Below, piece by piece: positions 39,160 through 61,105 of a DNA stretch of 64,000 bases. The notes beneath the pieces are model-generated. The model worked only from the letters and a program-made list of their open reading frames with translations. It made no database searches and had not been told where the DNA came from. Within the stretch, counting starts at the first letter, position 1. Each line of letters begins with the position of its first letter. The DNA is taken from positions 43,744,390 through 43,808,389 of the forward strand of contig NC_030384.2 in the NCBI RefSeq assembly GCF_001625215.2, in the 5' to 3' direction. A program made the translations under genes and the position numbers. Source of the stretch: Daucus carota subsp. sativus (taxonomy: Eukaryota > Streptophyta > Magnoliopsida > Apiales > Apiaceae).

Positions 39160-40856
39160 ATATATATATTCTTGTAAACGTTCATGAATCCTCAAAGTCC
39201 ACCGTAGAAAATGCATGGAAAAAGAGGTGACAATTAAGGTTTCATATAACATTTAAAATGCGCAAAGGAAAATAAACCAAGATGGTAAGAAAATCTACTG
39301 GTATAAAGTATCCTCTTATATTTTGCCAAATTAAGATTTGAATACTTCCAAATGAGGGAAAATAGCAGTGATGGAAAAGTGTGTACAAGTGAGTGAAGGC
39401 ATAAAAAGAGGAATATAACAAGGTTAGGAAACGGTGGTTGAGCTTGCAGTACATACTACATACAGTGAGGAAGTGGTGTACTTTCTGAGCACTTCAATTC
39501 AATGTACCCCATGCATCGACATTCACGCCATGTATCTACTTACAACTCAGAGGTTAAATGCTGTATCTACTTTTCGTCTCGGTGAATTCGAGTTTTTACA
39601 TTTCACACCCCAATTTTCTGGTCTATTTACCACGTTTCCAGTTCATCCCCACATCCCTTCAGCAGACAATATCTTCACAGATCACTTATTAGTGTAAGAA
39701 AATGTCGATGTACAAGTACCATGGAGGTCACGCGCTTGTGGTAAAATAATCACTTAGTATTCAATGAAGGAAAGTAGCGGATATAAAGAGAAGTGTAAAG
39801 AAATGGTTGGGTACGTGACCAGAATTGTCCGAACGGATTATAGTTTCTCAGTTAGGTATCTCAACATTTAAGGGAATCGACAGTTGCATATATTTGGTTC
39901 GAGTTATTAAGAAGATGCAAATTAAAGACAATGAGGCCTCAGGTCACTTGACTCGGTGCAACGACTGAGACCGCGAAAATCGGGACCACAAAATGTATGA
40001 TATAGCGAAGTTGCAGCAGCATATGTAGATTGATTGGGATGGGGCAAACATGATAGCCCGATACATATATGCATCAGATACACATATGTTTAAAGTTAGA
40101 GAACCATAATATTGTGATAAAAGGAGGCACAAGGGGTAAAGGACTTGCATCAAACATAAGGACAGAGACAGTGAAGAAGTGTACACACATTTTCTTTTGG
40201 ACCACTGCCTCAATAGAGACCACTTGGGTGCCTGTTGATGAAATTCAACTTTGAATTCGAGTCTGGCTCCACCATTTAAACTACATTAATATAAGTACAC
40301 GAAATTACGCAGATTAGTGGCTTTTTAAGGATTGAATTAGTTTTCCAACATTAATCATGAATTATATGTACGTGGATTAGGTCCAATTTCCAGGCTATAT
40401 ATATGAGCAGATAAGCTGGTATCACTTAAAATTGCAACGCCAATTGATGTGGCCTTGGAATATGATCTTAAACTACTGACCATATTTTCTGTCTCCATTT
40501 GAAGGTCTCGTGTTGTGTTTAATTGGGATGAATAAATTTGGAAGAAATGAAATGAAATTTAAACTATGTTATTCGTAATTGTTTATAAATTTCATTTCTC
40601 TCTGCATTTCATGTTTGCACTCACTCAATTTTTTCCAAAACTTCCCTCTTTATCTCTGTTATGTTCAGTTATTTTTAGTAATTTCATTTCATTCTCTCAA
40701 ACCAAACACAACTCACCGGTCACCGTAGCACTGGGAATGAGCTATGATGATACAAGACAAACATTTCATCAGGCATGGGCACTCCCATTTGCGACCCTGC
40801 CTTGTCAAGTTATCCTAGTAAAATTATTAGACATCATCAGAATATCAGATCCAAAC
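39160..40856. other. Intergenic region before the CAF1 cluster
   Basis: No recognised gene. Several short ORFs (for example 39434-39697 and 40566-40937) lack recognisable domains and start contexts. The right end leads into the CAF1 3'-UTR relic. Confidence 0.4.
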
Positions 40857-41275
40857 AAGGAAGGGATATGTTGCCATTACATGTCCAAAAGGAGTAAAGG
40901 ACAAAACATACCAGATGCTCTGCATCGACAGCTATAATGCAATGTGTATATTAAGCGTTAAAATATTGTTTACTTGCAATATATCAGAACATCTGAATAG
41001 AAAAGAACAGGATAGTTGTAGACTCTTGGAAGCAGTTTTTCAATAGCATTTCAATGATATAATATGGTTGACTGTAGCTGTTTATCTACTTGAATCAACC
41101 ATAATAACTTGTTCTGCATCTTGTTATATGGATCTAATTAACGTCTAAAACTCAGAAAAACATCTGGCCAAAGTTCTTCTTCTTTTTTTTTTTTTCTCTC
41201 CACTTGACACCCTAAGCCTATTTTTGTGAAATCCCCATATAAATGTCACAAAAGATAGGAAGAGATTCAAAGTTC
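40857..41275 (+). pseudogene. Relic of a CAF1 gene 3' UTR
   Basis: The sequence GATATGTTGCCATTACATGT, then AGTAAAGGACAAAACA, AATGTGTATATTAAGCGTTA, TAATATGGTTGACTGTAG and finally AAAAGATAGGAAGAGATTCA, follows in order the 3' UTRs of the two intact CAF1 genes (from 43692 and 57644). It has two extra segments (about 37 bp and about 110 bp). No CAF1 coding sequence is recognisable upstream, so this is the tail of a lost copy. Confidence 0.75.
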
Positions 41276-41385
41276 TTGGGCCTTGGCAAGTCTAGGATTG
41301 GCCCCGGTGGGAAGGAAGTGCGGTAAAAAATGATTTCCGATCAAGGGACAAGAGCTCAACCACTACACCAACTTTTGTTGACTTG
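41276..41385 (-). mobile_element. Possible tRNA-derived SINE fragment
   Basis: On the minus strand, GTTGGTGTAGTGGTTGAGC resembles the A-box head of tRNA-derived SINEs. The B-box equivalent is degenerate (CTTGATCGGAAATC) and no poly-A or target duplication is clear. It begins where homology to the CAF1 3' UTR ends. Confidence 0.35.
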
Positions 41386-41798: not shown

Positions 41799-41837
41799 GT
41801 AAGAATGTTAAAAACTACTATTGTTCAGCAAAGTCTA

Positions 41838-42845
41838 TTACATGTAATGTGATTTTCTGTCACGTTCGATAATGTGTGTTTCAAGAGGGTTTGGTAATGT
41901 GTTCATGTAGCTGTAAGAATAGATTGAATTATGAAATTTTGACCGGAATGAGATGGGGACTTTTGTTATCAGTAATGAGAATGTGATTTAAACATAAATA
42001 TATATTATATTTCATTTCTTCTCATCAATCTTGTTGAAATTCCACACATAATTTTAGAATTCTTCATGAATAATATATCTCAGTTGAAAAATCAACTACC
42101 TAATGATATATAATCAACTATATATCATAAAGTTATAAAGTTGTAATAAATCTACCTGCCTCACCCCGAAATTTCTTAGAACGGATACTTATTCGTAAGA
42201 TTATTAGTCATATTTGTCGGGAAAAGAGAGAAGTTATTTGTGATACAAAAAATTATTTTTTAGTATTTTTAATGTAAAACTTTAAATTATATTCATCATT
42301 AATAATAGTATATATTTGTAATCCTGTTTTTCATAGCAAGTACTTGGCAGTGATGAGTGACAAAAACTTATTTTGTGTTATGTCATATTCTTGGTTCGAT
42401 TCACCTTTATTCCGATTAAAACTTGTTTTTGTAAAACATATAGGTCTAATTATCCCATTGGTAGGAAAAATTTGCCCGGTAATCAAACTAGAAACCTGTA
42501 ATATATATGAGTATATTCTGTTAATTTACCACAATAGTAATTAATTACCAATTAAATAATAATAATCAAAATATATGGGATACGTGATTGTATTTTATTT
42601 AATTTACATAAAGAACTCTAAAACCCCCGAATTCGAAATCAAATCGAAAAAAAAAGGTAAGAAGTAAAAACCGAATCGTAAAAGGAAACGTTGTGCTTTC
42701 CTACTTCCTAGTGTGTTTAGAGTTCAAAAAGTTGGCCTCTACTCGACCTCTCCCTATAAATACCCACACATGTGCACAAACACTAATGACTAATTCTTCT
42801 CTCCTTTCTTCTCACCCAAAAAAACTAGGTTATTGTGTCGTTGTT
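41838..42845 (+). promoter_or_regulatory. Promoter and leader of CAF1 copy 1
   Basis: This region aligns in a broken fashion with 55978-56797 and 58728-60533, upstream of the other CAF1 loci. A TATAAATA box (42755-42762) lies 84 bases before the CAF1 start codon inside a conserved CCTATAAATACCCACACA block. The leader lacks about 18 bases present in copies 2 and 3, which puts an upstream ATG (42786) in frame with the CAF1 start. Confidence 0.7.
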
Positions 42846-43685
42846 ATGGAGTTGGCAAGAAGGCCGATTGCGATCATCGAAGTGTGGGATCACAATCTCG
42901 AAGAGGAGTTTTCTCGTATCCGAAGGGCCGTGATGTCGCACCCCTGCATCTCGATTGACACTGAGTTTCCAGGCACTGTTGTTCCTGACTTGAAGAAGCG
43001 CAAGTTCTATGAGCTGGAGCCAGAGGAGGCGTATTCGTTGATGAAGGCTAATGTGGATGCTTCGAAACTGATTCAGCTTGGTCTCACGCTGTCTGATCCG
43101 TACGGGAACCTCCCGGGTTTTGGCACGGAGATGGGTCATGTGTGGCAGTTCAACTTTCGAGAATTCGACGTGGACAAGGACGTGCAGAATATCAGTTCGA
43201 TCGAGTTGCTTAAGCGCCACGGAATTAATTTCTTGTGGAATAAGATGTATGGGGTTCGTTCTCAAGATTTCGCCAGGCTTTTTAGGGGCTGTTTTGGACC
43301 GAGGTGCACTTGGGTTACGTTTCATGGGGGGTATGATTTTGGGTATCTGGTGAAAGCCTTGACGAATTCTGATTTGCCTGGAGATTTGGGGACTTTTAAG
43401 GGTTTGCTGTGCAGGTTCTTTGGGAATTCGATGTATGATGTCAAGGCGATTATGGAGCGGTTTCGTTTACGTGGTGGTTTGGAGGCGTTGGCTACAGAGT
43501 TTAAGTTGGCTCGAGTTGCTGGGACTCCTCATCAGGCCGGTTCTGACAGTTTGCTGACCATGCAGCTCTTCATCAGGATGATTCAATGGTGTGGTCATCG
43601 TAACAACGGGACTGCATTGCGCCCTTGCATGCCCTATGGATTGAACCTAGAAGTGAACAAGCAAGTACAAGAAGCAGGTTTCTAA
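42846..43685 (+). CDS. CAF1: CCR4-associated factor 1 (CAF1) deadenylase, copy 1
   Basis: Intronless gene for 279 residues, the usual plant CAF1 length. CAF1 is the DEDD-type 3'-5' exoribonuclease of the CCR4-NOT complex that shortens mRNA poly(A) tails; several plant members are stress- or wound-induced. The catalytic residues are all present: Asp38 and Glu40 in SIDTEFPG, Asp164 in FHGGYDFGYL, and His229 and Asp234 in HQAGSDSLL. The VWDHNLEEEF block after the start is the normal CAF1 N-terminus. The start is chosen at 42846 because it is shared with copy 2; an in-frame ATG at 42786 could add 20 residues here only. The gene is convergent with the LRR gene to its right. One silent difference from copy 2 was found (a CCG versus CCA proline codon at residue 7). 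Confidence 0.95.
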   Translation: MELARRPIAIIEVWDHNLEEEFSRIRRAVMSHPCISIDTEFPGTVVPDLKKRKFYELEPEEAYSLMKANVDASKLIQLGLTLSDPYGNLPGFGTEMGHVWQFNFREFDVDKDVQNISSIELLKRHGINFLWNKMYGVRSQDFARLFRGCFGPRCTWVTFHGGYDFGYLVKALTNSDLPGDLGTFKGLLCRFFGNSMYDVKAIMERFRLRGGLEALATEFKLARVAGTPHQAGSDSLLTMQLFIRMIQWCGHRNNGTALRPCMPYGLNLEVNKQVQEAGF

Positions 43686-44149
43686 AGGAGTATTCATGGA
43701 AGAGATATGGTGCCATTACATGTCTAAAAAGAGTAAAGGACAAAACACAATGTGTATATTAAGCGTTATAATCTTGCTTCGTGTAATATGGTTGATTGTA
43801 GTTATTTTGATTTTTCTGCACCAACACTATAAGCGTATTTAAAATCCCTTGATAAATGCCCTATGGATTGAACCTAGAAGTGAACAAGCAAGTTAAAGTC
43901 TGAGAATGCTAGCAGAAAGTAGTGCAGGCCAGTTTCTAATGTATAGTTAACCCCTTTAATTTTTTCTTTTTTATTTTTTTATGTAAGGATGTCACTGAAT
44001 CAATGAAGTAATACTTTTTTCTTCTTAATTATTTCATTAGCAGAGTAGAATATAGGAGTATCATTACCACAACAGTAAATTTTACAATGCAATGCAACAG
44101 ATATTTGATCAAAGTGAGAAAGGAAAAACAAGATGTGAAGTTTCTGCAT
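43686..44149 (+). other. 3' UTR of CAF1 copy 1 with a fused CAF1 C-terminal stub
   Basis: The 3' UTR matches copy 2 until about 43855. There a 38-bp exact copy of the coding 3' end begins (43856-43893, identical to 43629-43666), followed by unrelated sequence. The distal part near 43970-44042 matches the block near 61040-61100 behind the third CAF1 locus. The rest up to 44149 is the convergent gap before the LRR gene stop codon. Confidence 0.75.
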
Positions 44150-45288
44150 CTATCTTCTGATCAACCTTTGCTGAGCTTTTTCAACGAACATTACAAATCG
44201 CCAAGGCTTTCCGGTTGTGAATACAATATATCCCATGGACAACCCGCCTGCCAATCCACTTCCATACCCCATCAGCATCATTTTCCAATCAAACCAATCG
44301 TCGTCATTATCATCATCAACTTCCGGTTTTGGCAACTCATCATATCTACATTTCTTGGTTAGAGGAAATCCACACAATGCCAGGTTACCTAGATATGAAT
44401 CATTGCTCATTGTGTCTAATTGCCTGCCTTGGGGAATTGATCCTGAAAGATTGTTGGCAGAAAGGTTCAAGAATGCAAGAAACGTCAGACTGGTCAATTG
44501 CCCAGGAATCATACCTGTCAAGTGGTTTAAAGAGAGATCTAAAGATTCAAGAAGACTCATGTTACCCAGCAGTGATGGTATATGTCCTGTAAGCTTGTTA
44601 TCCGAAAGGTTGAGCAGCCGGAGTGATTTAAGTTCTCCAAGGACTTTTGGAACACCGCCAGTGAACTTGTTGCTTGATAAATCTATGCTTGTGTATATAT
44701 AAAGAATTCTTTTCACTTCAAGATCCTCTCCCTTGACAACTAAGGAAATAGAAGCTTCGTAATATGAATCTCCTACTATTGTGGTATTCACTCCTATTCG
44801 TTGATCTGAATCTGCCATATCTTTGAAGTTATCAAAAAAATTGATTGGCAGGTTGCCACTGAATCGGTTGTGAGAGAGATCCATGATACGCAATTTAGGA
44901 AATGGATGTTTAATTACATTGCCAACACTCAAGTTACCATGCAGTCTATTAGAACGCAACACAAGGATTTGTAGCTTCGGAAGAGCTACTAGCCACCATG
45001 GAAATGTGTCTTTCAACTTGTTGTTTCCAAAATCAAGAATCTGTAACTGCGTACAGTTGGCCAAGGCTAGGGGTACCGATCCTTCGATATTATTACTGTT
45101 CATGTTGAAAGTTGTCAATTGGCAACTCTTGTTGAAGGTTAGTGATATTCTCCCTTGAAGTTGATTTTTATGAAGATCCACTACACAGAGCATCCAAATA
45201 TCTCCCAAACAGTGTGGAATTGTGCCGCTACCTGACAAATCAAGAGTCCTAAGAAATACCGACTTGCAAAGTGTTGAAGGAATTTCTC
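44150..45288 (-). CDS. LRR receptor-like protein, exon 2 (C-terminal LRRs, membrane anchor)
   Basis: Second exon of the gene starting at 47341. It joins by phase 1 across a 268-bp intron (45289-45556; donor TCTG/GTAAGC, acceptor TTTGACAG/GA). It encodes the last LRRs (DLSSNKFTGGVP, NLSDNKLTGHIP, DLSLNHLTGMIP, NLSANNLSGSIP), the QGRQLDTMSNDSYLGN.ALCGFPL cap, an acidic VDDDNDDDW juxtamembrane stretch, and one transmembrane helix with GxxxG spacing (GYGSGLAGGLSMGY). A short basic tail ends LIRR with no kinase. This is the layout of RLPs that signal with SOBIR1/BAK1-type kinases, often as pattern or effector receptors. One LRR near the exon start (LRTLDLSGSGTIPHCLGD) is about five residues short. 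Confidence 0.85.
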
Positions 45289-45556
45289 CTGTCAAACATA
45301 AAAGAGTGTGTTAACAAGTTACTCAAATCAGCAACCAGATCAGGCATCTCCTCGTAAACATGGTCTAATAATTTCACGACCGTTTTAGAATTTCAAGCAG
45401 TTTCCAACCTAGGGCCAATATTTACAGTTCCAGTAAGATTATAACTATGCTGGAGGGTGTTATCTTTTGTCAACAATAACTTGCGAATACAAAGTAGCAG
45501 TACAACATATTCCTACCGTATTTAAAGGATACACTTGAATGATTTGTAAAGCTTAC

Positions 45557-47341
45557 CAGAGAACTTGTTCTTTGATAAATCAACATAACCCAACCCACGA
45601 CCAGAATCATAAGTATAATTCCCCAAGTCCTTTGGAATGCTACCAGAAAACCTGTTGGAATAAAGGAAAGTACCCACAAGCAACTTAAATTGGAAATGGA
45701 ATCAGGCAATTTTCCGTTCAACTGGTTGTTGTTGGCATAAAGAATTTCCAGCTGTGTTGAGTTCCCAATCTCAGGTGGAATAGTTCCAGTAAGATTATTG
45801 GAGTCCAAATATAAGGAAAATAAACTGGTGAGGTTACCAGTTGTTGCTGGAATTGGACCTGCTAGATGGTTTCCTGTGAGGTATAACTCCTCAAGCCCTT
45901 TCAACTTTCCAATCTCTCTCGGAATGGGTCCTGTGAGATTATTACTAGACATAACGAGTTCGTTAAGATTTGTCAACATACCAATTTCAGGAGGAATATT
46001 ACCGCCCAAGGTATTGTTTGCAATGCGCAGTATTCTTAGCTCGGTCCAGTTGCTGATGACATGAGGTGAGAGCCCACCGGAAAGATGATTCCCGGATAGA
46101 TATAGTTCAGACAACTGTGTTAAATTTGAGAAGGACAAAGACAGAGGCCCAGTAAGCAGATTCTCAGATAGATCCAAGCTATTGAGTTTGGTGCACAATC
46201 CAATCCCAGGAGGAATACTTCCTTCAAATATATTTAAACCCAAATTAAGAAATTCGAGATTATGTAGATGACTAATACTATCAGGAATAAATCCCGAGAA
46301 ATTATTCCTGGATAGATATAGTTTAGACAACTGTGTTAAATTTGAAAAGGACATGGACAGAGGCCCAGTAAGCAGATTCTCAGATAAATCCAAGATATTG
46401 AGTCTGGTACACAATCCAAGCTCAGGAGGGATACTTCCTTCAAATGTATTCATACCCAACTTAAGAACCTCGAGATTATGTAGATGACCTATACTATAAG
46501 GAATAGACCCCGAGAAATTATTTGATTCTAGGTTCAGATATTTTAGCTTGGAAAGCTTGGAAATATTTTTGGGTACTGATCCTTCAAAGAAATTACCACT
46601 AAGATCTAGAAATTCAAGATTAGCCAAATGGGTAAACACTGACTCAGGTATGGAGCCTGTCAGATTATTCGATGACAAATCAAGACTAGTCAAATTCCTA
46701 AAAGTGATTGCAAAAGGTGGAAATTCTGAAGAAAGTTGATTGGAGTGTAAGAGGAGGGATGTCAAATATGGCATGTCGAAGAACATGGACCAGTTAGCAT
46801 CAACCAAGTAGTTTTCTCCCAAGTTTAGATACCTTAACTTTTGAAGACAACTAATTTGGTAAGGAATGGTACCACTGAAATAGTTGTTTTCAAAGCTCAA
46901 GTACTCAAGTTTGGTTAGATTTCCAATCTCTACTGGAATACTATCTGAAAGTCTGTTGTTGCTTATTTCCAAAGAGATGAGGTTTGGAAGTGAAGAGAAA
47001 TTGAAGGATGAAAGTGTACCAGACATCAGTTCTCCAATGGGTGGATCGGTTCTGCTTGGCGTCTTGTAGGAAAAGATTCTTGGCACAGTAAAGTTGAGTC
47101 TGGAAACTGTTCCTGCAGTATTGCAGGTGATGCCGTTCCAGTTACAAAGGTTGTTGAGATTTTCTAGGGACCAAGATTTTAGGGGCAAAGAAATGAGGTA
47201 TCGAAGTGGTAATAAAGTGTTCTTCCATTCGACAAGAGCTTCCCCTTCAGATTCTGGAGATGACGTTATATTGAGTGGAAGAACAAAGATGAAAAGAGAA
47301 TAAAATACTAAAGCAACACGAGGACTGTTTAATATAGCCAT
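45557..47341 (-). CDS. LRR receptor-like protein, exon 1 (signal peptide and N-terminal LRRs), frameshifted
   Basis: ATG at 47341 begins a signal peptide (about residues 1-27), then an LRR N-cap with LCNWNGITCN, then about 18 plant-type LRRs with LxGxIP cores. The frame holds until ISNLSCLWVLS, about residue 560. There the T run at 45661-45664 is one base short: the original frame drifts out, while the next frame reads FSGSIPKDLGNYTY and continues cleanly to the donor at 45557. As it stands the product stops early, without membrane anchor. Either the gene is a young pseudogene or one base is missing in the assembly. Residues encoded by 46095-46526 are an internal duplication of three LRRs. 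Confidence 0.85.
46095..46526 (-). repeat. 216-bp tandem duplication encoding three LRRs
   Basis: Segments 46095-46310 and 46311-46526 align end to end with a 216-base period, 72 codons or three 24-residue LRRs. Shared stretches include GACAACTGTGTTAAATTTGA and GAGGCCCAGTAAGCAGATTC. The encoded repeats both read LDLSENLLTGPLS.SFSNLTQ and differ at scattered residues, so the duplication is recent but not identical. Confidence 0.9.
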
Positions 47342-47563
47342 TGCTGTATCTGTTTAGCACGAGGTCTATACCTTCGCTTGCAACAACCTTTATTTTTTTA
47401 ATACCGTATAAACAACCTTCACTTATCGTTCAGAAGAACAGCATCACCGAGCTAGAAATTGAGCAAGAGAACTATCACCAGAGAGATGTAGTGTTGTGGT
47501 ATTGAGAAAGAGTAGATTGTGTTTAGATAATCCAAAACCCTACAATCTATAGGGGTATTTATA
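47342..47563 (-). promoter_or_regulatory. Leader and TATA box of the LRR receptor-like gene
   Basis: On the minus strand, CACCTATAAATACCCC contains a TATAAATA box at 47563-47556, about 215 bases upstream of the ATG, giving a leader of roughly 180-190 nt. Position and sequence fit a standard plant TATA promoter. Confidence 0.6.
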
Positions 47564-47616
47564 GGTGCGGAGAGACTTGTGTGCTACTCTTTCTCATAAT
47601 TAAATAATCGGAAACA

Positions 47617-47835
47617 AAATCAGATTAAAACTTTCAAGCTATTATATTCCATAAATAATCTGAAACAAAATCAGATTTTGAAACTTGCTTCCAATATATC
47701 CGAAACTTGCTTCTAATATATCCGAAACAAAAAAAGGTAGTTATATCGCTTCTCCTATACATAGAAACAAAATCAGATTAAAACTTTCAAGCTACTATAT
47801 TTCATAAATAATCTGAAACAAAATCAGATTCTGAA
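47617..47835. repeat. Direct repeats upstream of the LRR gene
   Basis: CAGATTAAAACTTTCAAGCT..TATAT, then ATAAATAATCTGAAACAAAA, occurs at about 47619-47675 and again at about 47773-47830. A shorter CCGAAACTTGCTTC.AATATAT repeat lies between. The spacing of about 152 bp could reflect duplicated regulatory DNA. Confidence 0.7.
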
Positions 47836-48520
47836 ACCGAAACTAAAAAAGGTAATTCTAATTTTTGATATTTTTCATCCAAAAATTCCAGAAAATTAGA
47901 AATATAGAACGGAGCTATGTGAGAGGAGCTGATTCCAGAAAATTAGAAATAAATTTACTCGGATTACTTGAACAATATAAGAGTTGAGAAATTACGTATA
48001 AGATACAGAAGTTATAGTAGAGTATACAAATTTTTCAAGAGTCTCATTCTTAAACCAAATATTTTATTTGTCTCACTTTTTCTTTTTCCACTTTGTACTT
48101 GTACGATTCCACTTCTATATCTTATACGTTGTAGGGTTCCCCTCTCTCTCTCAGTACTACAACCTCACGGATTTAAGTTATATGTTTTTGTGCACAGTCA
48201 ATCAAAAAAAATTGGAGGATGATGACAATGTAAGAACATGATTACTTTTCAAAAAAACAAAAATACAAATAAAATTAAGATTCGTCGTACTTTAAATTGT
48301 TAATTACGTGTATAAATTTATTTTCATTTTTTCAACATGAATTATAGCCCAATTTTGCAATTTTATATATTAGTATTGGTATTACATCAAGATATTTATA
48401 ATATAAAATTTATTTTATCCTACAAATATTAAATTTAAAATATTAATATACTTTTTATAGACAGCCACAAAATAATTTTTTTCTACAAATATTAATATTA
48501 AATCATTAATATAATTTTAT
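47836..48520. other. AT-rich intergenic region
   Basis: No recognisable gene; a short ORF at 47968-48222 has no domain features. Confidence 0.45.
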
Positions 48521-48552
48521 AGGCCGCCGCAACGCGCGGCTTCTCAACTAGT
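48521..48552 (+). mobile_element. Candidate Helitron 3' terminus
   Basis: A GC-rich hairpin-capable sequence (GCCGCCGCAACGCGCGGC, about 48523-48540) is followed after 7 bases by CTAG at 48548-48551 and then T. Helitrons end in CTRR with a short GC-rich hairpin just upstream, and insert 5' of a T. The 5' end was not found. Similar GC-rich words (CCCGCGCTACGCGAGC near 49689; CTCGCGTTACGCG near 49967) suggest related elements to the right. Confidence 0.45.
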
Positions 48553-48882
48553 TTTATAAAAAGAAAAGTTGTAAAGAAAAATATACGTCTAGGAAACAAA
48601 ATTTATGGAACATGCAGCTTTTATTAAAAAAGCCATCAAATAAGACTAGTGAAAATGTCCAAGAATATCACTTCAAATTTATAACAAATATCAATAATAA
48701 TTTTGATCTCAAACCTAACATGCATCAAACAAATTTCAGCCACACGTTTGCTTGTGACTTGCTTCATTGCCACCACCTCGCTATTCTTTTCACATAAATA
48801 TATAAATCTCAGCTAGTGAATGTGCTGACAACACATACAATGAAACACCAGAGGGACTCCGCATCGATTGTTGAGGGAAACC

Positions 48883-48960
48883 CTTATATGTTCGCCCATG
48901 GGGAGGGCGAACATATAAGAATCCTGTTTTAGTGTTCGCCCCTGGGAGGGGCGTTCATTA
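48883..48960. repeat. Perfect 15-bp-stem hairpin and adjacent imperfect hairpin
   Basis: CTTATATGTTCGCCC (48883-48897) pairs perfectly with GGGCGAACATATAAG (48905-48919) around a 7-base loop. About 15 bases on, GTTCGCCCC-TGGGA-GGGGCGTTC forms a second, imperfect hairpin, and ATGTTCGCCCATAG at about 48976 is an unpaired third copy of the arm. No coding sequence is linked to it. Confidence 0.85.
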
Positions 48961-51365
48961 AAAAAAGCTTGCACATGTTCGCCCATAGCTTGATTGAATT
49001 AGGGTGGTCAGTTCTGTGAAGTGAAAAAAAAGGTGGTTAGTTTTGTAAAGATTGTGTTTAGGGTGGTTAGAAATTTGAAGGAGCCTGCTTGTTACCATAG
49101 TTTCCGGGGATCTAGTAGTAATATATAAGGGATATTTTGTAGAAATTCGACCAAGTTGTCCCACTTTGTTAGCCTCGATCTTAGGGACTAATGACTTGAC
49201 AGAATGCTAATTTGAACATCTTCCACAGGTTTGAAGTTTTCTGATCTCTAAAACAGACTAATAGTTTGAAGGAGTAGCTGTTTTCTAGAGTACTATTTGG
49301 TTTGCATCGCAAATCGACTGGTCCAGTTTTTCTGTCCACTTGATAGCTATCAATTTTTGCAGAAAATCGTAGAAAAGAAAACGATTAACCATTTTGTAAG
49401 CCATAGAAATTTGTTTTGCATATCAAAATTATTTTAGAACCAATCACAAATCATTTATAAATTTTAGACCAATAATATTCGTAAATTTTATAAGTGTAAA
49501 TATATAATTATTATGAGATGAATAATATAAAATCAACACAAGATAGCATTTATAATTATTATTTTTTGAAAATCTTACAATGATTATTTATGATTTATTT
49601 AGACAAAATTTTCATTATTTTCATAAGTGAAATTTTACAAATTTATACTTTTATGGTTATGCTCTATTAGAAATACTAGGGAATTATGCCCGCGCTACGC
49701 GAGCTTCCATTAAAATTTATTTAACAATTAATAAAATAAAATATTGTGTATTTGCTTAAAATGCGAATTTTTAATATTATTACCAACTATTACATAAGCA
49801 AGGATGACCACGATTACTCTCCTTACTATGAATAATTCGTATACATCTATAGTGATCTTAGAGCTGTAATAATCTATTCGAAAAAAATAAAAATTTATAC
49901 TTATTCAGACTATTAATCAAAAAATCTGCTTACAAATTATTTTAACTGCTATCAAATCAATTATGCTCGCGTTACGCGTGCTAAGACCCTCATAAAAAAT
50001 TATATTTTTTTTATCCTCACAAAATTTAGAAGGTGGTATATTGTTAGGTGTAAGTGTAAAATTGAACTTTTATGCTCGCGCTATACCTGCTAAGACCTTG
50101 TATATTATCGACAAATAAGATTATCTATTGAAGTTCTGAATATTAAATATTAAAAAAATGAAAAAAGTAGAATCTAATAAAATATAGCTGATAATTGTAT
50201 TGAAATTATGTTTATTATATGAGAGTGTAATTTCGAAAAATATTCGTTGTATAACGAAAATAACACATTAAAATTTATCAAGCTAAGACTTTGATAAATA
50301 TAATAAACATCCTTCAGACAAATAATTGATAACTAATATTTCATTGTGATATTAACAATACTTTTAATAAATTTATTAAAAATTATATCATTTTAACTGA
50401 CATAAAAAAATAACTTTTAAACATCGATTTTAGTAACGCTTTAACTTTTCGTTAGGTATGAGATTTTAAAACAAAAATGATTTTCATATACATTTAGTAA
50501 TATAACAAAACCGACGATGTAAGAAAATACATAAAAAAATATAGTATATTTTGGATACAACTACGGAGTATTTTAATAGTTGTAATTGTTCCGACCCGAA
50601 CCCGATTTTTTTGGATCTGGATCTTATTTTTAGACCCACAAAAATTGGATCTCAGGTATTCTGAACCAAGGCCCGACCTATATTGATTGACAACTCCAAC
50701 AATAATCCTCATTTGTGTTTTTTATATTATTGCAATATTATATTCTATTTCTTTCAAGAAAAAGATAATAAAAAAAATATGGGAAAGAGGTTCCAAAAAA
50801 AATTTATGAAGAATGAGAATTGGATCCTAAATTTTAGGGGAATGAGCAGGACTCTCCTGGAATGAATTTTTGTCCATATTCCTCGAAACGTAGTCACTTT
50901 TTGATCCATAAGATGGGGTCCAAATAAGAAAAACCTAATGGTAGTTAAATACTGGTCAACAATACCCATGTCTTCTTTGATTTAGCTTTGATCAAATAAC
51001 TGACACACTTGGCCCTGGCACAACCCTTCAATACTGAATAAAAACTTTGAAGAGTATCAAAGGCTTTTGCCTCATTGTTCCTATTTCTGTAGTACATTTA
51101 GGAAGATTATAACAAACAAATATTTGCGGTGATTGTAGTGTTCAACACCCTCTGCTCTTTTTTTCCTGTCCATTATCAAAGTTGCTTTTGTATTTGAATT
51201 ATTGTGCAGCAATTGACAACAAAACATGGCAACATTTAAATAAACTTGACCAGAAAAAAAAAGGATATTGAAGAAAATAAAGAAAAAATTGTTCTTCCTC
51301 TTACGTTCCAGATTGCTAAATTATCCATAAACTACAAAGAAGATGAGAAACTTGCTAAAATCAAA
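48961..51365. other. AT-rich, repeat-like intergenic region
   Basis: Contains three related GGTGGTTAG-type words near 49004-49070, GC-rich Helitron-like words near 49689, 49967 and 50076 in otherwise very AT-rich DNA, and at about 50590-50690 a fragment resembling the ends of the element at 59353-60140 (GACCCGAACCCGATTTTTTT, then GGCCCGACC). No gene is recognisable. Confidence 0.45.
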
Positions 51366-54300
51366 TCAGCAGCTTCTCTTGTTCTCCTTGTCATCAGACT
51401 CCCACCCTGTATACTCACCACCTTGCACCTGTTGATCAATCCCCTGCATCATAAAATAATTCGTGTCATCAGGCTCTGACATGTACTCCTTTTCGACACA
51501 GATCAATCTGTTCTGCACTCGCTTCACATTTTTCTCTTTCTTCAATCCTTTGCTCCATTATTGTTAATTCTTCAGGATGCAGCTTACTGCCACTAACTCA
51601 TACTCTTTAACTTTATCACCCAAAATATCATCTACAGACCACATAGTCGCATCCACCTGTATATCCTTCTTCTGCTTAGCTTGATCTACTAACAGACTAT
51701 CACTACCTGCTCCTGATCAGCAGAAACTACATTAAACATAAAATAGAATTCAGTATCCTCTACATTGGAGGAGTGTTTCTGCGATCCCTTTAATTATATT
51801 TATGGCCGAAAAAAAATTACATTAAACATATAACTTACCCTCTGATTTTCCACAAACATCCATAGACGCTGGACTGTTCTCCTTGTCACTATTATACATA
51901 ACATTGAATTTTTTACCACTAACATGACCGCGACCAATACGGCTAACACCTGGATGCAAGGAATATTAGTACATACCATGATGGTTAGAGAATATAATCA
52001 ATTTGAAAATGAGTTCAGGCAACGTGCTTACCCCCAGAGGCAGAGTTCTCCGTTACAGAGGGATGATTCTCTATCTCCTCATCGATAAATTTGTGCACAG
52101 ATACAGGCCTTTCAAGAACACGTGCATAAAGTCATCAAGTTAAAGTCTTGTTAGACTCTGCAAGCACATCAAATTGGTTGCTTTCCTCTCTAAAACAGAC
52201 TTTAAATACTTGCTTGTGTATTTCTTCAGATAGTCTACTATTAAGTGATAAGTGAAACTTAGTGATTGGCATATTTTATAAAGCAGAATTATATTATCAA
52301 TGTCTGATGTGTTTTATATAAGAAGAGGTGCTTTAACTCATCCCTTTCACTCTGCTCTTGTCATTATTTCCACATTTTTTTGCTAAGCTGATATTTTACA
52401 AAGCTAGTGTCATTAAACTGAAACTTGTCTGGAACCATGAGTTGGAATAAACCTTTAGAAATAGGAATCTCAATAAAAGATAAAGTGATTATATATACCT
52501 GCAAATCAGTGTAAAAAACTTCCTATCACCTATACTGCCAGAATTTGCTACATCTTTGTGATTTAAATGTTACCATCTTCTGCAGAAGTCTGATTCTTTA
52601 TTGTGTTGCCACTTTCCTCGCCATATCTCTGTGCCAGAAGTTTCTCAACTCCTGGACGTCTACCTCTACGCCTAGGAGCTGCAAGTGAAATGAAATAACC
52701 TCCCTGAATTTTGGAAATATACATGATGCTTCTAAACAACCTTAATAAAATTACCAACTAATGGATCTTTGTGATGAGCAAGCACCGGTTGTTGGGAATT
52801 CCCCATATTGTTGACACCTGGACCACGACCTCGTAGCTTTTCCGCCGCATAATCGCACTCATATTTGTCAAATACCCCAGAATATGCTTATTCTGATAAA
52901 AAATACATGTGTTGACGGAAATTATACTCAGGAACGTATCAAAGATTCACAAAATTGTATTGTCAAGTTAATGAACCTTTATACCTTGTTGATAAATAAT
53001 AATATAGCATATTTACAGAAATTCAACTGTATAGTTCCAAATGAACACTAACTATCAGATGATGAGGCTGTGAATAAATCACATAATCACATTAGGGCTA
53101 AGTTGTTATGCTTCTCATTTCTAATACCAGAACCTGATTTACCTGTTTCAGCCAGGACATCTGTAGTTTTGCAACTAAGTCATTATTTTGTAAAGCTAAT
53201 CCAGGCTTAGCATTGCCCAAATATTCTCTTTATAGCTAAAGACCGTTGAAAAATATTCTCTTTATAGCTAAATGTGCCACACTTATAACATTGTAAATTG
53301 GAATATGATCGTTGTAAAAGAATATAAGATATCGGTGGTGAGGTTTTGATACTAAAGTAAATGACACTACCTCTGGAGATTGTAAAAAACAGAGACAATC
53401 TTGATGACATCTTCCGGTCTAAAAATTGGGATATTAGGATTTATATTTTCACCAAATTTAGCAATATTATTCGACTATTTGTACTTTCATTACCTTTTAT
53501 TTTTTTAAGCCAAGTACTGTATTCATATTCTAGTCGCAGCCTATGCTTTAGACCTAGATACAGAACCAAATTCTGAATCTTGATCATATTATGGTAAAAC
53601 CTCTATAGATCCTTCTGTCCTATACGCCTTTGAAATCACTGTTGGGACCCTTGATCTTGCAAGTAAAAGAACTCTAAGTTGTATGATCAGTAAAAAGGAC
53701 TGCTACTTATATTAGATTGAGATGTACCTTTATATTGACCATTTCCTCCGGTTCCGAGAAAGTCAAGATGCAATAATATCTTCGTTTAAGGATATGGGGA
53801 TAGCATTCTAATTCATTTTGTTGTTCACCGCAAGAATTGAGATTAGAATTCATACCAAGACCTGTAAAATCAATCCAACAAATTAGAGATTAAAATCTTG
53901 AATCCCGACATGGATGATAAGAAAATACAGAATAACGCCACATACAATATTAATTTCTACAACAGTCATCAAACACATACTCTTTTTTGGGTAAATGAGG
54001 GCGGCACCTCGTATAAATTTTATAACATAGAGAGAAAAAATAGAAAGAAAGGACTCCTATCTGGAAAACAAAACCTCGAATAACAAACTCAAAGAGGCAA
54101 AACAACCAACTAATTATAGAAAATAAATATGCATGTCCTCCAACGATAAAAATAAAAAGCAAGCCAAATAAAACTAAAAACTTCCTGCCAGAGATAACAG
54201 CACCCTCCCCAACCATTCCAAATAATTGAATCTACCACACAACACTCTGACCATGCACTGATCACTTCTGAGCAATACCAATGACCCACACAATAAGTCC

Positions 54301-54640
54301 CAGACAATCCAAAGCAGGAAAATATTATATAACCACTGAACTACTATCCCAATACAACCTGGCCAGCTTAAATGATTGAGAATAAAAATAGAGCTTGAAC
54401 ATGTTAGAATTAGAAAACGTACTAAATGGATCAAACAGAACAAACAATTTAGTTCAGGCGTTCTAACAAACACTTTATGACGTATCAATTATAGAAACCA
54501 TAGATTAGAACTCATACATGACAAATTATAAAAATAAATCAAAATAAATTAAATCCAGAATAAAACCTGCAGATCTTGTCGACATATTCTTGCCAGAAGT
54601 ATGAAGCGGAGGCACTGCTTCTTTTCAACAATAGCTCGTG
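51366..54640 (-). CDS. Unrecognised multi-exon RG-rich gene, partly degraded
   Basis: Minus-strand exon-like blocks with consensus splice sites: 54567 (donor end of an upstream block), 53861-53728, 52886-52755, 52678-52574, about 52120-52032, 51949-51839 and 51706-51564. The exons 52886-52755, 52678-52574, 51949-51839 and 51706-51564 are bounded by phase-1 junctions, which chance ORFs would not show. They read GVFDKYECDYAAEKLRGRG, APRRRGRRPGVEKLLAQRYG, GVSRIGRGHVSGKKFN and GSDSLLVDQAKQKKD. RRGRRPG resembles an AT-hook but is not canonical. Defects: 53861-53728 is one base off a multiple of three; the 5' junction of about 52120 is out of phase; and the last frame meets two TAA codons, then reopens to 51366 (KRVQNRLICVEKEYMSEPDD). 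I recognise no family; a decayed or domesticated element is possible. Confidence 0.35.
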
Positions 54641-55977
54641 CCCTGCCAATTTGCAGAACTTGAAACTATATTTAGTAGATGCAAAAATTTACATACACTT
54701 TCAGGTCTATGGAAAGTTTCTCGTGCCTATCTACCAGCTCTATACCCGGTCTGTGTCAATCTTAGATTTTTAAATTTAAGATATGTCACTCTGCAAAGTT
54801 ATGAACTTTGTCATGCATATTGCTAGGGTGTATTTCGATGACATGTGTGCTTGTATATTTATAAGAAGACCATTTCAGCTGGCAGAGTTTTTGAATACTG
54901 AATCATATGCATTTTGTGAATTGTATTAAGTAAATGTTTAACTACTGAGTTTTGTTCCTGAAATACTTGCCAGTGTTATAAACTATACTTCTATTTCAAT
55001 TCATATCTTATTTCTTTATTAAGTGAATGTAACAGGTTATGACAGTTTGTAGGCCTGGATGATTGGTACTAAATTAGACTCTATTCACATTGTTGTATTA
55101 GCCAAACAAAAATATAAAGGAAGGGTGATCAGCTCCCAAGGTTGGGGAAGGGGATTTGTTGGAGTGTAACAGGGGGGAGTTTATGCAAAATGAGATCATT
55201 GCCATTTACTTCATGTACTCCCCAATCTAAAATTGGTTCAATAATATGGCTACTTATATTATTTCCTAAAATATGGCTACAAAGACTAATCACGTAGATA
55301 CACATGAAATTATACGTAATAATCAACAAAATTCTATAACTATAATGAAATAATAAAGACTAATATTAGGGAATACATCCACTCAATCCGATCCGTGCTC
55401 AATTCCATGATACTTTATTCATACTTATCTCCTTCCAAAATGATCATATATATTATAAAAAATTGTGCATAAACATTATTGAAATTAATAAAAATAACAT
55501 AATTTTATATGTACTTTTGTTATTATTTTTTAAAATTTTATTATTTTATATTGTAATATAATTTATTAATGATAATTTATATTTATTTTTTAGTCATACG
55601 ATAATCAAATATTAATTCATATTCGATTAATTAATTAATTTTAAAATGATTATATTGTATATTAATTATCTTTTAAAATATTTAGAATTTTTCGCAAATT
55701 CTTGTTTTAATATCATTTGAAAATGGGGATGGAGTAGACATTAATGCCTCATCAAATGTTAGGGTGGATTTGGAGACCGATAGAATACTGAATACAGGGC
55801 TATCCGGTCAAGTGTCAAATCTTATTATTTTTAGTTTATCCAGATTTAAGTTTAGGATCTTTTATTCAAATATAAACTAATATTATATTTTTAATTTTTT
55901 AACCTTAAATTACGTATGTTTTCCTTACAACTTAAATTACGTTGCAGAAAATTAAAATGACATTTATTTTAGGATGG
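54641..55977. other. Intergenic region left of CAF1 copy 2
   Basis: AT-rich without a recognisable gene. Short ORFs at 54576-54826 and 55329-55129 lack domain features. Confidence 0.45.
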
Positions 55978-56797
55978 ACATGTAATGTGATTTTGTTTAA
56001 TAATGTGCGTTTCGAGAGGGTTTGGATAATGTGTTCATATAGCTGTAAAAATAGATTGAATTATGAAATTTCGACCGAAATGAGATTGGGACTTTTGTTA
56101 TCAGAAATGAGAATGTGATTTAAATATAAATATGAATTATATTTTCATTTCTCCTCATCAATCTTGTTGAAATTCCACATATAATTTCAAAATTCATGAA
56201 TAATATATATCTCAGTTGAAAAATCAACTATTTAATGATATATAATAAAGTATATATCATAAAATTGTAATATATATTGTATATAATTAAAAAAAGTTAT
56301 TTGTGATAAAAAAAAATACTTTTATGTAAAACGTTCTTTTGTCTGGTTATTAATGTAAAAAAATATTTGTTATTTACAATAGTATATATTTGTAATCCTG
56401 TTTTTCAGAGCATAATGTATAATGCTGGCAGTGATAAGTGATCAAGTGATAAAAACTTGTTTTGTATTATGTCATCTTGGTTCGATTCACCTTTATTCCA
56501 ACTAAAACTTTATGTCTAATTATCATTAAAAGAAAAAAATTGTGTATTTTATTTAATTTATATAAACAACTCTAAAAAAAACCCGAATCCGAAATCAAAT
56601 CGAAAAAGGGGTAAAAAGTAAAAACCAACTCCGAAGCGTAAAAGGAGACGTAGTTCAAAAACTTGGCCGCTACTCGATCTCTCCCTATAAATACCCACAC
56701 ATACATCGCACACAATTTTGCTACTTTAATCGATTTCTCCTTTCTTCCCACCCAAAAAAATTAGGTTATCGCGTATTGATTTGTTTGTGTCGTTGTT
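55978..56797 (+). promoter_or_regulatory. Promoter and leader of CAF1 copy 2
   Basis: Homologous to the upstream region of copy 1 but with many indels and substitutions. A TATAAATA box at 56686-56693 lies in the conserved CCTATAAATACCCACACA block. The leader keeps the TTATCGCGTATTGATTTGT stretch that copy 1 has lost, and has no in-frame upstream ATG. Confidence 0.7.
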
Positions 56798-57637
56798 ATG
56801 GAGTTGGCAAGAAGGCCAATTGCGATCATCGAAGTGTGGGATCACAATCTCGAAGAGGAGTTTTCTCGTATCCGAAGGGCCGTGATGTCGCACCCCTGCA
56901 TCTCGATTGACACTGAGTTTCCAGGCACTGTTGTTCCTGACTTGAAGAAGCGCAAGTTCTATGAGCTGGAGCCAGAGGAGGCGTATTCGTTGATGAAGGC
57001 TAATGTGGATGCTTCGAAACTGATTCAGCTTGGTCTCACGCTGTCTGATCCGTACGGGAACCTCCCGGGTTTTGGCACGGAGATGGGTCATGTGTGGCAG
57101 TTCAACTTTCGAGAATTCGACGTGGACAAGGACGTGCAGAATATCAGTTCGATCGAGTTGCTTAAGCGCCACGGAATTAATTTCTTGTGGAATAAGATGT
57201 ATGGGGTTCGTTCTCAAGATTTCGCCAGGCTTTTTAGGGGCTGTTTTGGACCGAGGTGCACTTGGGTTACGTTTCATGGGGGGTATGATTTTGGGTATCT
57301 GGTGAAAGCCTTGACGAATTCTGATTTGCCTGGAGATTTGGGGACTTTTAAGGGTTTGCTGTGCAGGTTCTTTGGGAATTCGATGTATGATGTCAAGGCG
57401 ATTATGGAGCGGTTTCGTTTACGTGGTGGTTTGGAGGCGTTGGCTACAGAGTTTAAGTTGGCTCGAGTTGCTGGGACTCCTCATCAGGCCGGTTCTGACA
57501 GTTTGCTGACCATGCAGCTCTTCATCAGGATGATTCAATGGTGTGGTCATCGTAACAACGGGACTGCATTGCGCCCTTGCATGCCCTATGGATTGAACCT
57601 AGAAGTGAACAAGCAAGTACAAGAAGCAGGTTTCTAA
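56798..57637 (+). CDS. CAF1: CCR4-associated factor 1 (CAF1) deadenylase, copy 2
   Basis: Intronless, 279 residues, same predicted protein as the gene at 42,846 with all DEDD residues (Asp38, Glu40, Asp164, Asp234, plus His229). By eye the coding sequences differ at a single silent base, while the regions upstream are clearly diverged, so the coding identity looks homogenised. The start is the only in-frame ATG before the conserved ELARRPIAIIEVWD. The 3' UTR has a 24-bp tandem duplication absent from copy 1. The two genes lie in the same orientation 13 kb apart. Confidence 0.95.
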   Translation: MELARRPIAIIEVWDHNLEEEFSRIRRAVMSHPCISIDTEFPGTVVPDLKKRKFYELEPEEAYSLMKANVDASKLIQLGLTLSDPYGNLPGFGTEMGHVWQFNFREFDVDKDVQNISSIELLKRHGINFLWNKMYGVRSQDFARLFRGCFGPRCTWVTFHGGYDFGYLVKALTNSDLPGDLGTFKGLLCRFFGNSMYDVKAIMERFRLRGGLEALATEFKLARVAGTPHQAGSDSLLTMQLFIRMIQWCGHRNNGTALRPCMPYGLNLEVNKQVQEAGF

Positions 57638-57690
57638 AGGAGTATTCATGGAAGAGATATGGTGCCATTACATGTCTAAAAAGAGTAAAG

Positions 57691-57738
57691 GACAAAACAC
57701 AATGTGTATATTAAGACAAAACACAATGTGTATATTAA
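57691..57738 (+). repeat. 24-bp tandem duplication in the 3' UTR of CAF1 copy 2
   Basis: GACAAAACACAATGTGTATA plus TTAA occurs twice head to tail (57691-57714 and 57715-57738); copy 1 and the relic at 40857 have it once. Confidence 0.95.
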
Positions 57739-58727
57739 GCGTTATAATCTTGTTTCGTGTAATATGGTTGATTGTAGTCATTTTGATTTTTCTGCACCTA
57801 CACTCTAAGCCTATTCTTTTTAAAATCCCTTGATAAATGACACAAAAGGTAAGAAGAGATTCAGAGTTCTTTTTCAAGTCTCAGTGGATCACGTAATTTT
57901 GAAAACTTCTGCTTTGATCATTTCCAAAAAAAAAAAAAAAATCTGATAAAATTGTATTGAGACATAAAAAAATATATTTCTATACAATATTTTTCAATTT
58001 TTTTAAAAATAAAAATACATATGTTAAATTTTTATCTAAAAAAAATAAGAAGATTTGAAAAACATTATATAAAAACATGTTACCCCTTTAAATTACATAT
58101 AAAAAAATAAAACAATTATCAGTTTTAAACATAGTAGCAGTAGCGTCAGTTGCAGCAATTACCGACCGCTCTTATAGCTCTAGCGTTGTGTATGATCTGA
58201 GTGAGAGTTTAAAATCGTTTCTCATTTTAAATTAAAAAAATATATGTTCTTATAATAAATTATAAATTGATTTGAAGTCAAAAGTAAGTCGGGAACTGAC
58301 ATAAAATCAGTGATTAATTTAAAGTATTATTTCAATGACTTGATTTATTTAATCCTTTTTTTGATAAAAACTATCTATAAATTATTTTTAACTTTATTAT
58401 TACACTTTTAATAACTCATAAATTATTAATAAGTCATGAATATTGAAATTTTAGATATTTTCAATTTTCAATTTATCATATTAACTCATAAGACCTAACT
58501 TTAAACCAAGTCAAACGGGTTTATAGTGTCCGCGTTATACGACAGTTTCCACTTCCTGGAGTAATATTTGACGGGGAGATTAAGAGTCTATTTGAAAGTG
58601 CTGTTAAAAATTGCTCTGTTGTCAAAAAAGGTGTTGATAATTTTTTGGTATGGGAAAATCAGCTTTTCAGGCTGTTGTTCGGAAAAACTGTTTCTTTTCA
58701 CCTGATTTACTTGTTCAGCAAATTCTG
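57739..58727. other. 3' flank of CAF1 copy 2
   Basis: The CAF1 3'-UTR homology continues to about 57880 (AAGAAGAGATTCAGAGTTCTT, shared with 41255-41275). Beyond this it is AT-rich with poly-A near 57927-57942 and no recognisable gene. Confidence 0.5.
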
Positions 58728-59352
58728 TTACATGTAATGTATTCTGTCACGTTCGATAATGTTTGTTTTTCAAGAGGGTTTGGGCGTTTGGCATTGTGTT
58801 CGTGTAGATGTAAAAATAGTTTGAATTATGAAATTTCAGCCAGTACGAGACGAGATTGAGATTATTGTTACCCCGAATGAGAATGCGGTTCAAATAAAAA
58901 ATTAAATTACATTTTCATTTCCGCACACCAATCTCATTGAAAATCGGCATCATTTTAAAATTTTCCATAAATAACATATCTCAACCGAAGAAATCGATGA
59001 TTTATTGTTAAATAATAAACGTATATCATAAAGAGTTTTATATCATAAAGTACGTTGTAATACATATTGTATATAACTAAAAAAGGTTATTTGTGATTAA
59101 AAAAATTATTAGTATTTTTAATGTTAAAGATTTGCTTATTATTATTAATAATATATAATTTGTAATCCTGTTTTTTCATAGCATTATGTAATGTTTTTGT
59201 GGTGATCAGTGATAGACTTTTTTTTTTAAACAATCAGTGATAAGGACTTATATTTTGCTGTCTCAAATTTTTGATTCAAATTATTGTTTATTTCAACTAA
59301 ACTTGTTTTTTAAGACATACTGGTGTAATTATCATCTAAAGAAAAAAATTAC

Positions 59353-60140
59353 ATAGGGATGACAAAATAATCCGATTCGATGATATTCGATTTGAAACCT
59401 GAAATTTTGCATTTATAGAACCCGATTTTTTGGATTTGGATTTAGATATGAATTTAATTTTGAAACCCAAAAAATTTTGAATTTGGGTTTGAATATTAGG
59501 TATACCGATCCAAAATCAGAAACTCAATCCAAACCCGATCTGAATCCGAAAAAACACCGAATATATAATATTTTTATATATATATAAATAAATTATATAT
59601 ATATAATTTAATAATTATATATATAATTTTATATATAATTTTATATATTACATATTATTATTATAAATATTATTGTATAATATAAGAACATATATTTATC
59701 TTGAACATAAAAATTGACTAATAATTAATAAAATTAAATTATAGCATAAAAAGGATAATGTGGTGATTAAATATTTTCTAATGAAAAATATTATAAGTTG
59801 TGTACATTTATAAATCAAAATGCTATTGTGTTATGATGATTGAAGTTGAAATATTGAAATTCTATCTCTTCCTAGTGCTCAATGTAGCGTGTACGATTCT
59901 AAGGGCTTGAAATATATATAATTATAAATATTTTCAGATTTCGGGTTTGGGTTTTGGATATTCAATCTAAAAAAATTCGCGTTTCGGGTACACCCGAATC
60001 CGATTCAAAATCTATTGGATCAGGTTTTGGTATTCATTTTCGGGTATTTTTCGGATTCAGAGCGGTTTCAGATATGAATAAAAATTTTGGGTCTGGATAT
60101 GAATTTTGCCATGTCCGACCCGACCCGATTGTCACCCCTC
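59353..60140. mobile_element. hAT-like non-autonomous element with about 7-bp target duplication
   Basis: Ends ATAGGGATGACAAAAT and ATTGTCACCCCTC are imperfect inverted repeats of the TAGGGRTGACAA type. AAATTAC is present just outside both ends (59346-59352 and 60141-60147). The matching uninterrupted sequence upstream of CAF1 copy 1 (AATTATCCCATTGGTAGGAA then GGTAATCAAAC, near 42450-42488) supports the insertion site. Interior arms hold repeated CCGAT/ATCGG-type words around a TATATA-rich centre; there is no transposase. Confidence 0.65.
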
Positions 60141-60533
60141 AAATTACCGTTAATCGAAAAAGAAAATTGTAATATAACTTACATTAATTAAAGTGGTATA
60201 ATAATTAATTAGTAATTAAATAATAATCAAAAACGAACAGTTTGATCGTATTATAATTAAATTACATAACTCTAAAAAACCGAATTTGAAAACAAATCGA
60301 AAAAAGGATAAAAATCAACGCTAAATTGTAAAAAAAAACGTTGTACTTTCCCGGTGTGTTTAGAATTCGAATATTGTTTCCTTATAAATACCCACACATA
60401 CGAAGTGTTTGCACAAATTCTATTCCCAACTTCATCGCATATGATTTTACAAGTTGAAATCGTTTTCTCTTTTTTACCGATCCAGAAAAATTAAAAAAAA
60501 AAAGAAGGTTATTGCGTATGTGTTTGTGTTGCT

Positions 60534-60722
60534 ATGGAGTTCGCAAGAAAGCTCATTGCGAACATTGAAACGAAACTTTCTCCGATCAATTCTCCGGCCA
60601 CCACCACTGTTATTCACGTTACCTCCCAAAACAAAACGCAACTACCGATCTCCACACATGCTTATGCCACCACCTCCACCACCATCTCGCCATGTCGTCG
60701 TTCCCTGACAATCTCAAAATAA
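60534..60722 (+). CDS. 62-codon orphan ORF starting from a CAF1 start region
   Basis: ATG at 60534 occupies the position of the CAF1 start codon behind a CAF1-type TATA box and leader. The first 12 or so residues (MEFARKLIANIE) derive from CAF1; the rest is Thr/Ser-rich (TTTVIHVTSQNKTQL, AYATTSTTISPC) and unlike CAF1 or any protein I recognise. No catalytic residue of CAF1 remains. It may be non-functional debris or a short new protein if the promoter is active despite the inserted element. Confidence 0.3.
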   Translation: MEFARKLIANIETKLSPINSPATTTVIHVTSQNKTQLPISTHAYATTSTTISPCRRSLTISK

Positions 60723-61105
60723 TATTGTGATTAACCGGTACCTTATCATTCGACATCAAAAAAAATTTCTTAATTATGTTAAAAAAGCAAGATTTTGTGA
60801 TATAATTATGTTATGCTCTTGATATAATTTCTACTAATAATTGAAGATTGTTCGTTTGTAATGAGAACTTAAATTGTTGTATTTGAATTTGAGGATTACA
60901 CCTTAAAGTTATTATATAATTCAATACAACATGCGAGAACTGCAATTGTTGGACTTTTCGGCAGTGTAGGTTTACCGATGCATTTGTTTTGTTCAAATAT
61001 GTGCATTTAATCTATGATATATAATTTAAGTAGCGGTTTGTTTTTATTATGCAGGGATGTCTTTGAATCATGGAATTAATACTTATTTTTTTTGAATTAT
61101 TTCAT

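Follow-up and report, generated by a model that had tools for sequence, protein, structure and literature searches.

Two CAF1 genes and their protein

A stretch of 64,000 nucleotides (the window) from the carrot, Daucus carota subsp. sativus (assembly GCF_001625215.2, contig NC_030384.2, positions 43,744,390 to 43,808,389 of the forward strand), contains two copies, A and B, of a predicted gene for the deadenylase CCR4-associated factor 1 (CAF1). Their coding sequences (CDSs) are almost identical, whereas their promoters have clearly diverged. Coordinates of both copies and of the features associated with them are collected in Table 1. Each copy is a single open reading frame (ORF) of 279 codons, and the two protein sequences are identical. 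Pairwise alignment of the CDSs gave 839 matches and 1 mismatch over 840 bases, the sole difference lying at base 21, in codon 7, where copy A has G and copy B has A; the change is silent. An initial annotation, made from the letters of the sequence alone, had described two CAF1 genes about 13 kb apart, with 840-base CDSs differing at one silent base and with promoters that are homologous yet carry many substitutions and insertions or deletions (indels). This description was confirmed throughout: both ORFs lie where they had been placed, 13.1 kb separate the stop codon of A from the ATG of B, and the alignments gave the one silent base and the many promoter differences (122/774 columns plus 19 indels).

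The shared protein matched the PF04857 domain at 60.8 bits against a curated cut-off of 24.2, although the best stretch covers residues 13-129 only, and a phmmer search matched residues 9-249 to a CNOT8 chain (E = 4e-47). The motifs IDTEF, YDFGY and HQAGSD line up with the same motifs of five full-length paralogs, and these hold what we take to be the places of the catalytic D, E, D, H and D. By domain and catalytic residues, both copies are predicted to encode a CAF1 deadenylase of the DEDDh exonuclease type (PF04857). In the portion of a poplar study cited here, DEDD plus His are named as the catalytic residues of CAF1, and the CAF1 genes of poplar and Arabidopsis are described as intronless in most members of two of three groups (PMC8155972).

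A domain search of the genome listed 17 stretches; the C5 stretches were left out of the alignment, in which 9 rows were compared. The A/B protein shares 43-45% identity with the genome's five full-length canonical CAF1 proteins, 40% with a split gene (L056) and only 23% with two distant ORFs (L058 and L059), the second of which was excluded from the paralog tree. In this small tree the A/B branch is long, at 2.59 changes per column, and the tool warns about long rows. Given this divergence from the canonical paralogs, it is unlikely that A and B are identical because of extreme protein constraint.

The reading frame of copy A also contains an in-frame ATG at 42786, 60 bases 5' of the shared start and with no intervening stop (42786-42845), which would add 20 residues. 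It lies about 30 bases past the TATA box and is therefore probably at or before the start of the transcript. In copy B the open frame extends only 6 codons upstream of the start and contains no ATG.

A near-identical tract between diverged flanks

Upstream of the two genes, comparison of A 41840-42845 (a span into which the tract described below extends by 13 identical bases) with copy B gave 652 matches, 122 mismatches over 774 aligned columns and 19 indels. Individual upstream blocks differed at 27/290, 15/110 (the middle block) and 13/151 columns, and the TATA region is conserved. The blocks missing from B are present in A and partly in a third promoter, C, and so are probably deletions in B. 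The dispersed repeat fragment in promoter A spans 42155-42219 and has at least 29 other copies in the genome. A scan for seven plant promoter motifs gave only scattered matches (e.g. ACGTG at -264 and -985 in A, none in B), too weak to use.

On its left side the near-identical tract begins 13 bases 5' of the ATG, at a 16-bp indel in the 5' untranslated region (UTR), beyond which the 5' UTR is diverged. On the right it ends near 43777 in the 3' UTR, about 90 bases past the stop. Within the tract, the 3' UTR of B carries 24 extra bp, which are a tandem duplication. Over the 3' flank as a whole, A 43686-43860 aligned with B at 168 matches and 5 mismatches (173 columns) with 3 gaps, one of which is the end of homology itself, at 43858/57839.

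The CDSs provide about 182 comparable synonymous sites and 117 fourfold sites. With one difference in each class, both are significantly less diverged than the upstream region at 122/774 (Fisher tests, P = 5e-11 for synonymous and P = 4e-7 for fourfold sites). Against only the two least diverged upstream blocks (27/290 + 13/151), picked to be conservative and leaving out the middle block, P was 1e-5 and 1e-3, respectively. The tail of homology 3' of the tract was likewise distinguishable from the tract (5/82 versus 1/944, Fisher P = 1.6e-5). The longest substitution-free run covered 910 of 1787 columns, and none of 5000 permutations reached it (permuted maximum 166). With the CDS reduced to third codon positions the run was 364 (0/5000, maximum 108), and with the CDS reduced to its 117 fourfold sites it was 206 (0/5000, maximum 109). 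Sites may evolve at different rates, which the permutations do not take into account, and the fair comparison is therefore the one with fourfold sites. The identity of A and B cannot be put down to slow synonymous change. The locus holds a significantly long tract of identity bounded by diverged homologous flanks, as expected under interlocus gene conversion.

Remains of a larger tandem array

Around A and B lie parts of an array that the initial annotation had missed, namely a 3'-UTR relic (R1), the third promoter (C), whose CDS has been lost, and, behind copy A, 38 bp that duplicate the end of the CDS. As C has lost the body of its CDS, its remaining start could not be kept homogeneous, and it serves as an internal control. 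Around the ATG, C shows 7/42 differences from A and likewise 7/42 from B, compared with 1/45 between A and B; unconverted coding sequence here therefore did diverge, as judged from a short sample. R1 differs from A at 5/53 columns in the 3'-UTR stretch A 43695-43747, where A and B show no substitution but have the 24-bp indel inside. Both unconverted copies thus show the expected divergence, over short stretches.

In the distal and middle upstream blocks, A and B differ by 9% and 14%, whereas A-C or B-C differences amount to 22-28%, which makes A and B sisters relative to C in these blocks. With C as outgroup, unique changes numbered 10 in A and 11 in B for the distal block, 9 and 3 for the middle block, and 15 and 3 for the 5' UTR. 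The latter two sets of counts are small and partly ambiguous in alignment, and in the 5' UTR it is A that stands out.

Genome-wide searches covered 441 Mb in 11 contigs and scored the best candidates only, so other members may exist. The CDS returned five listed matches (the 2 intact copies, the 38-bp fragment and 2 short matches of 71-72% to distant paralogs), and the 3' UTR of B returned three, all within the window. Promoter A returned 35, of which 6 are at the CAF1 locus and the other 29 fall within query positions 335-420, the dispersed repeat. No further array member was found among the matches listed for the CDS, promoter and 3' UTR. The possible downstream remnant of C is given little weight because it was not listed in a genome-wide search with A 43856-44140. 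The array thus had no fewer than three units, and probably four, all oriented alike; two of them are left.

The ORF at the start of C was considered as a new gene behind a CAF1 promoter, for which no evidence was found; elsewhere in the genome its stretch is matched once (125 bp, 81%), on the same contig at a distance of about 0.5 Mb.

Table 1. Positions of the CAF1 copies, the tract and the array relics within the window
Feature	Position	Strand	Remarks
CAF1 copy A, CDS	42846-43685	+	intronless, 279 aa, DEDDh residues present
CAF1 copy B, CDS	56798-57637	+	as A except for one silent base (CDS base 21)
Promoter and 5' UTR of A	41821-42832	+	carries about 65 bp of a dispersed repeat absent from B
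Promoter and 5' UTR of B	55978-56784	+	lacks about 114 bp (A 42475-42588) and 29 bp (within A 42692-42720)
Near-identical (putatively converted) tract	A 42833-43776, partner B 56785-57752	+	1 substitution in 944 columns
3' tail of A-B homology beyond the tract	43777-43858	+	5/82 columns differ, plus a 5-bp indel
38-bp exact copy of the CDS end (43629-43666)	43856-43893	+	behind copy A, abuts the end of A-B homology
R1, relic of a further CAF1 3' UTR without CDS	40856-41277	+	two matched pieces, 78% and 82% like B
C, third CAF1 promoter	58711-60533	+	about 0.8 kb insertion between 59333 and 60198; TATA region kept
C, start codon and first 12 CAF1 codons, then unrelated sequence	60534-60722	+	62-codon ORF, read by eye
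C, possible downstream remnant	61037-61105	+	69 bp, 81% like A 43970-44037 (local search)

Origin of the near-identical coding sequences

Recent interlocus gene conversion over about 0.91-0.94 kb would best account for the near-identity of the two CDSs, and we put its probability at roughly 0.86. A and B would be the two copies that survive from a tandem array older than the conversion and built from a divergent CAF1 deadenylase gene. Since their separation, their promoters would have had time to gain about 9-16% substitutions and several indels. A later ectopic conversion, probably during repair of a break in one copy with the other as template, would have replaced the coding region together with the last 13 bases in front of the ATG and about 90 bases beyond the stop codon, ending on the 5' side at a structural difference and fading out in the 3' UTR. 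The promoters would have remained untouched, leaving one deadenylase protein under two diverged promoters. The initial annotation had rejected a uniform recent duplication and proposed conversion confined to the CDS and proximal 3' UTR. Alignment, Fisher tests and permutations agree with the rejection, since divergence is not uniform across promoter, CDS and UTR, and the extent of the tract supports the proposed conversion, with the left edge now placed at the 16-bp indel in the 5' UTR. Its view of one protein under separately evolving promoters stands at the sequence level; the TATA region is conserved, and a difference in promoter use is not implied.

With a rate of 7e-9 per site per year, the single change in about 286 near-neutral sites (182 synonymous + 104 UTR) would place the tract at about 0.25 million years, and the upstream divergence of 9-16% would correspond to about 7-13 million years. 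Both ages are rough, and the duplication is dated solely from the divergence of promoters and relics. The direction of conversion might be from B to A if 43856-44037 (the 38-bp repeat and the stretch behind it) is A's own pre-conversion 3' end. The downstream match between A and C that bears on this idea is just 69 bp in a local search and was unlisted genome-wide, and a templated 38-bp insertion would explain the exact identity of 43856-43893 equally well. R1 agrees by eye with B, not A, at several of the tail differences, which implies no direction.

Several points weigh against conversion. The analysis covers one genome, in which comparison is confined to the genome's own paralogs and relics, and the C and R1 controls are short. 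There was no supported fork in the paralog protein tree. The upstream figure of 122/774 takes in poorly alignable stretches, the well-aligned blocks differing by 9-14%. In the 5' UTR (A 42771-42836) the differences are 19/66 for A-B, 26/66 for A-C and 16/83 for B-C, so that B is nearer to C than to A and the sister relation of A and B fails in that stretch. The proximal block of C (42589-42770) is misaligned, with A-C at about 51%, and was not used for C.

The array did exist, with at least one further promoter (C) and a 3' relic, and unequal crossing-over within it could have produced a chimeric gene, the CDS being common by descent and one copy having acquired the promoter of another. A simple crossover of this sort should leave the downstream spacer identical as well, but from 43777 on the copies differ again, and their homology stops soon after; promoters A and B are also each other's closest relatives in the distal and middle blocks, though not in the 5' UTR, and we regard this origin as improbable. 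Marginally less probable is a recent duplication of the whole gene, followed by fast divergence of the promoters under relaxed or positive selection. Such a history is in keeping with promoters that changed by large steps (A gained the dispersed repeat and B lost blocks) and with the unequal numbers of unique changes in the middle block and 5' UTR. It fits poorly with substitutions that, beyond the indels, reach 9-14% even in well-aligned upstream blocks, with a distal block that changed evenly on both branches, as ordinary neutral time predicts, and with a 3' tail that has diverged too.

The tract is shorter than 1 kb and the result rests on assembled sequence, so that an assembly or polishing error may be imagined to have copied one CDS over the other. 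The flanks differ, however, and the silent base, the 24-bp indel and the 5 tail substitutions are retained between the copies, while the 144 kb inspected contain zero N; of the alternatives this is the one we credit least. A bare assembly duplicate is also unlikely, given that both copies are part of one 51-Mb contig and that their surroundings differ on either side outside the homologous unit. Conversion could itself have taken another course, either templated by cDNA from the partner gene or repeated, with extension into the promoters selected against and two regulatory programmes thereby kept apart. The tract lies wholly inside the likely transcript, past the TATA region, so a cDNA template is possible; nothing demands it, and we consider these variants unlikely, if less so than the other alternatives.

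Other features of the window

Besides CAF1, the genes of the window comprise a leucine-rich repeat (LRR) receptor-like gene and a weak C2H2 zinc-finger match below cut-off, a set in keeping with a flowering plant. The LRR receptor-like gene lies between the CAF1 copies on the minus strand (44150-47353), with stops between its two long halves (45311-45469), and is probably broken or intron-bearing. A second tandem pair is found at 28059-30560 and 30852-33268, each member about 2.5 kb and without an ORF of more than 113 aa. Its divergence is uneven, at 5-16% over much of the length and 1-4% over the last 400 bases, with about 600 bases not alignable. There is also a head-to-tail duplication of 310 bp at 24877-25493 (99.4% identical) and an inverted repeat at 22507-23260, perhaps a mobile element, with arms of about 208 bp that are 93% alike. 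Searches of the window found no RNA family at gathering score and no tRNA.

Comparison with known systems

The nearest published parallel is the HMA4 tandem triplication of Arabidopsis halleri. In the part of that account drawn on here, the CDSs are 99-99.3% identical through homogenisation by ectopic gene conversion, the promoter segments keep their own haplotype groups, the three promoters are about equally active, and one individual shows conversion between promoters also (PMC3749932). HMA4 resembles the CAF1 pair as a set of tandem plant paralogs with homogenised CDSs and distinct promoters. It differs in having three copies, encoding a metal pump and being supported by population and expression data, whereas CAF1 has two intact copies plus relics, encodes a predicted deadenylase and is known from one genome. 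The similar activity of the HMA4 promoters cautions against equating diverged promoters with different use.

The same is seen further afield, as far as the relevant portions of the following reports extend. The beta-tubulin paralogs of Leishmania have conserved coding regions that evolve in concert and non-coding regions that differ by locus, but these loci are on different chromosomes of a protist (PMC1533823). The hsp70 clusters of soldier flies show the same contrast of CDS and promoter, with repeat insertions in the promoters; they have more copies, and their concerted blocks extend into the 5' flank by <200 bp in one species and >650 bp in the other, compared with 13 bp here (PMC3071340). 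Promoter similarity and synonymous divergence (Ks) are described as weakly correlated among potato tandem duplicates (PMC9131075). A literature search found no report that links CCR4-associated factor 1 to both tandem duplication and gene conversion.

The CAF1 pair is well supported as real, and the kind of event is already known and would not surprise a specialist in duplicate genes. It offers a clean, small example of coding sequences apparently kept alike by conversion while their promoters diverge, with the relics as an internal control, in a family for which copy-specific expression is of interest. Dating this duplication by synonymous sites would err by an order of magnitude or more.

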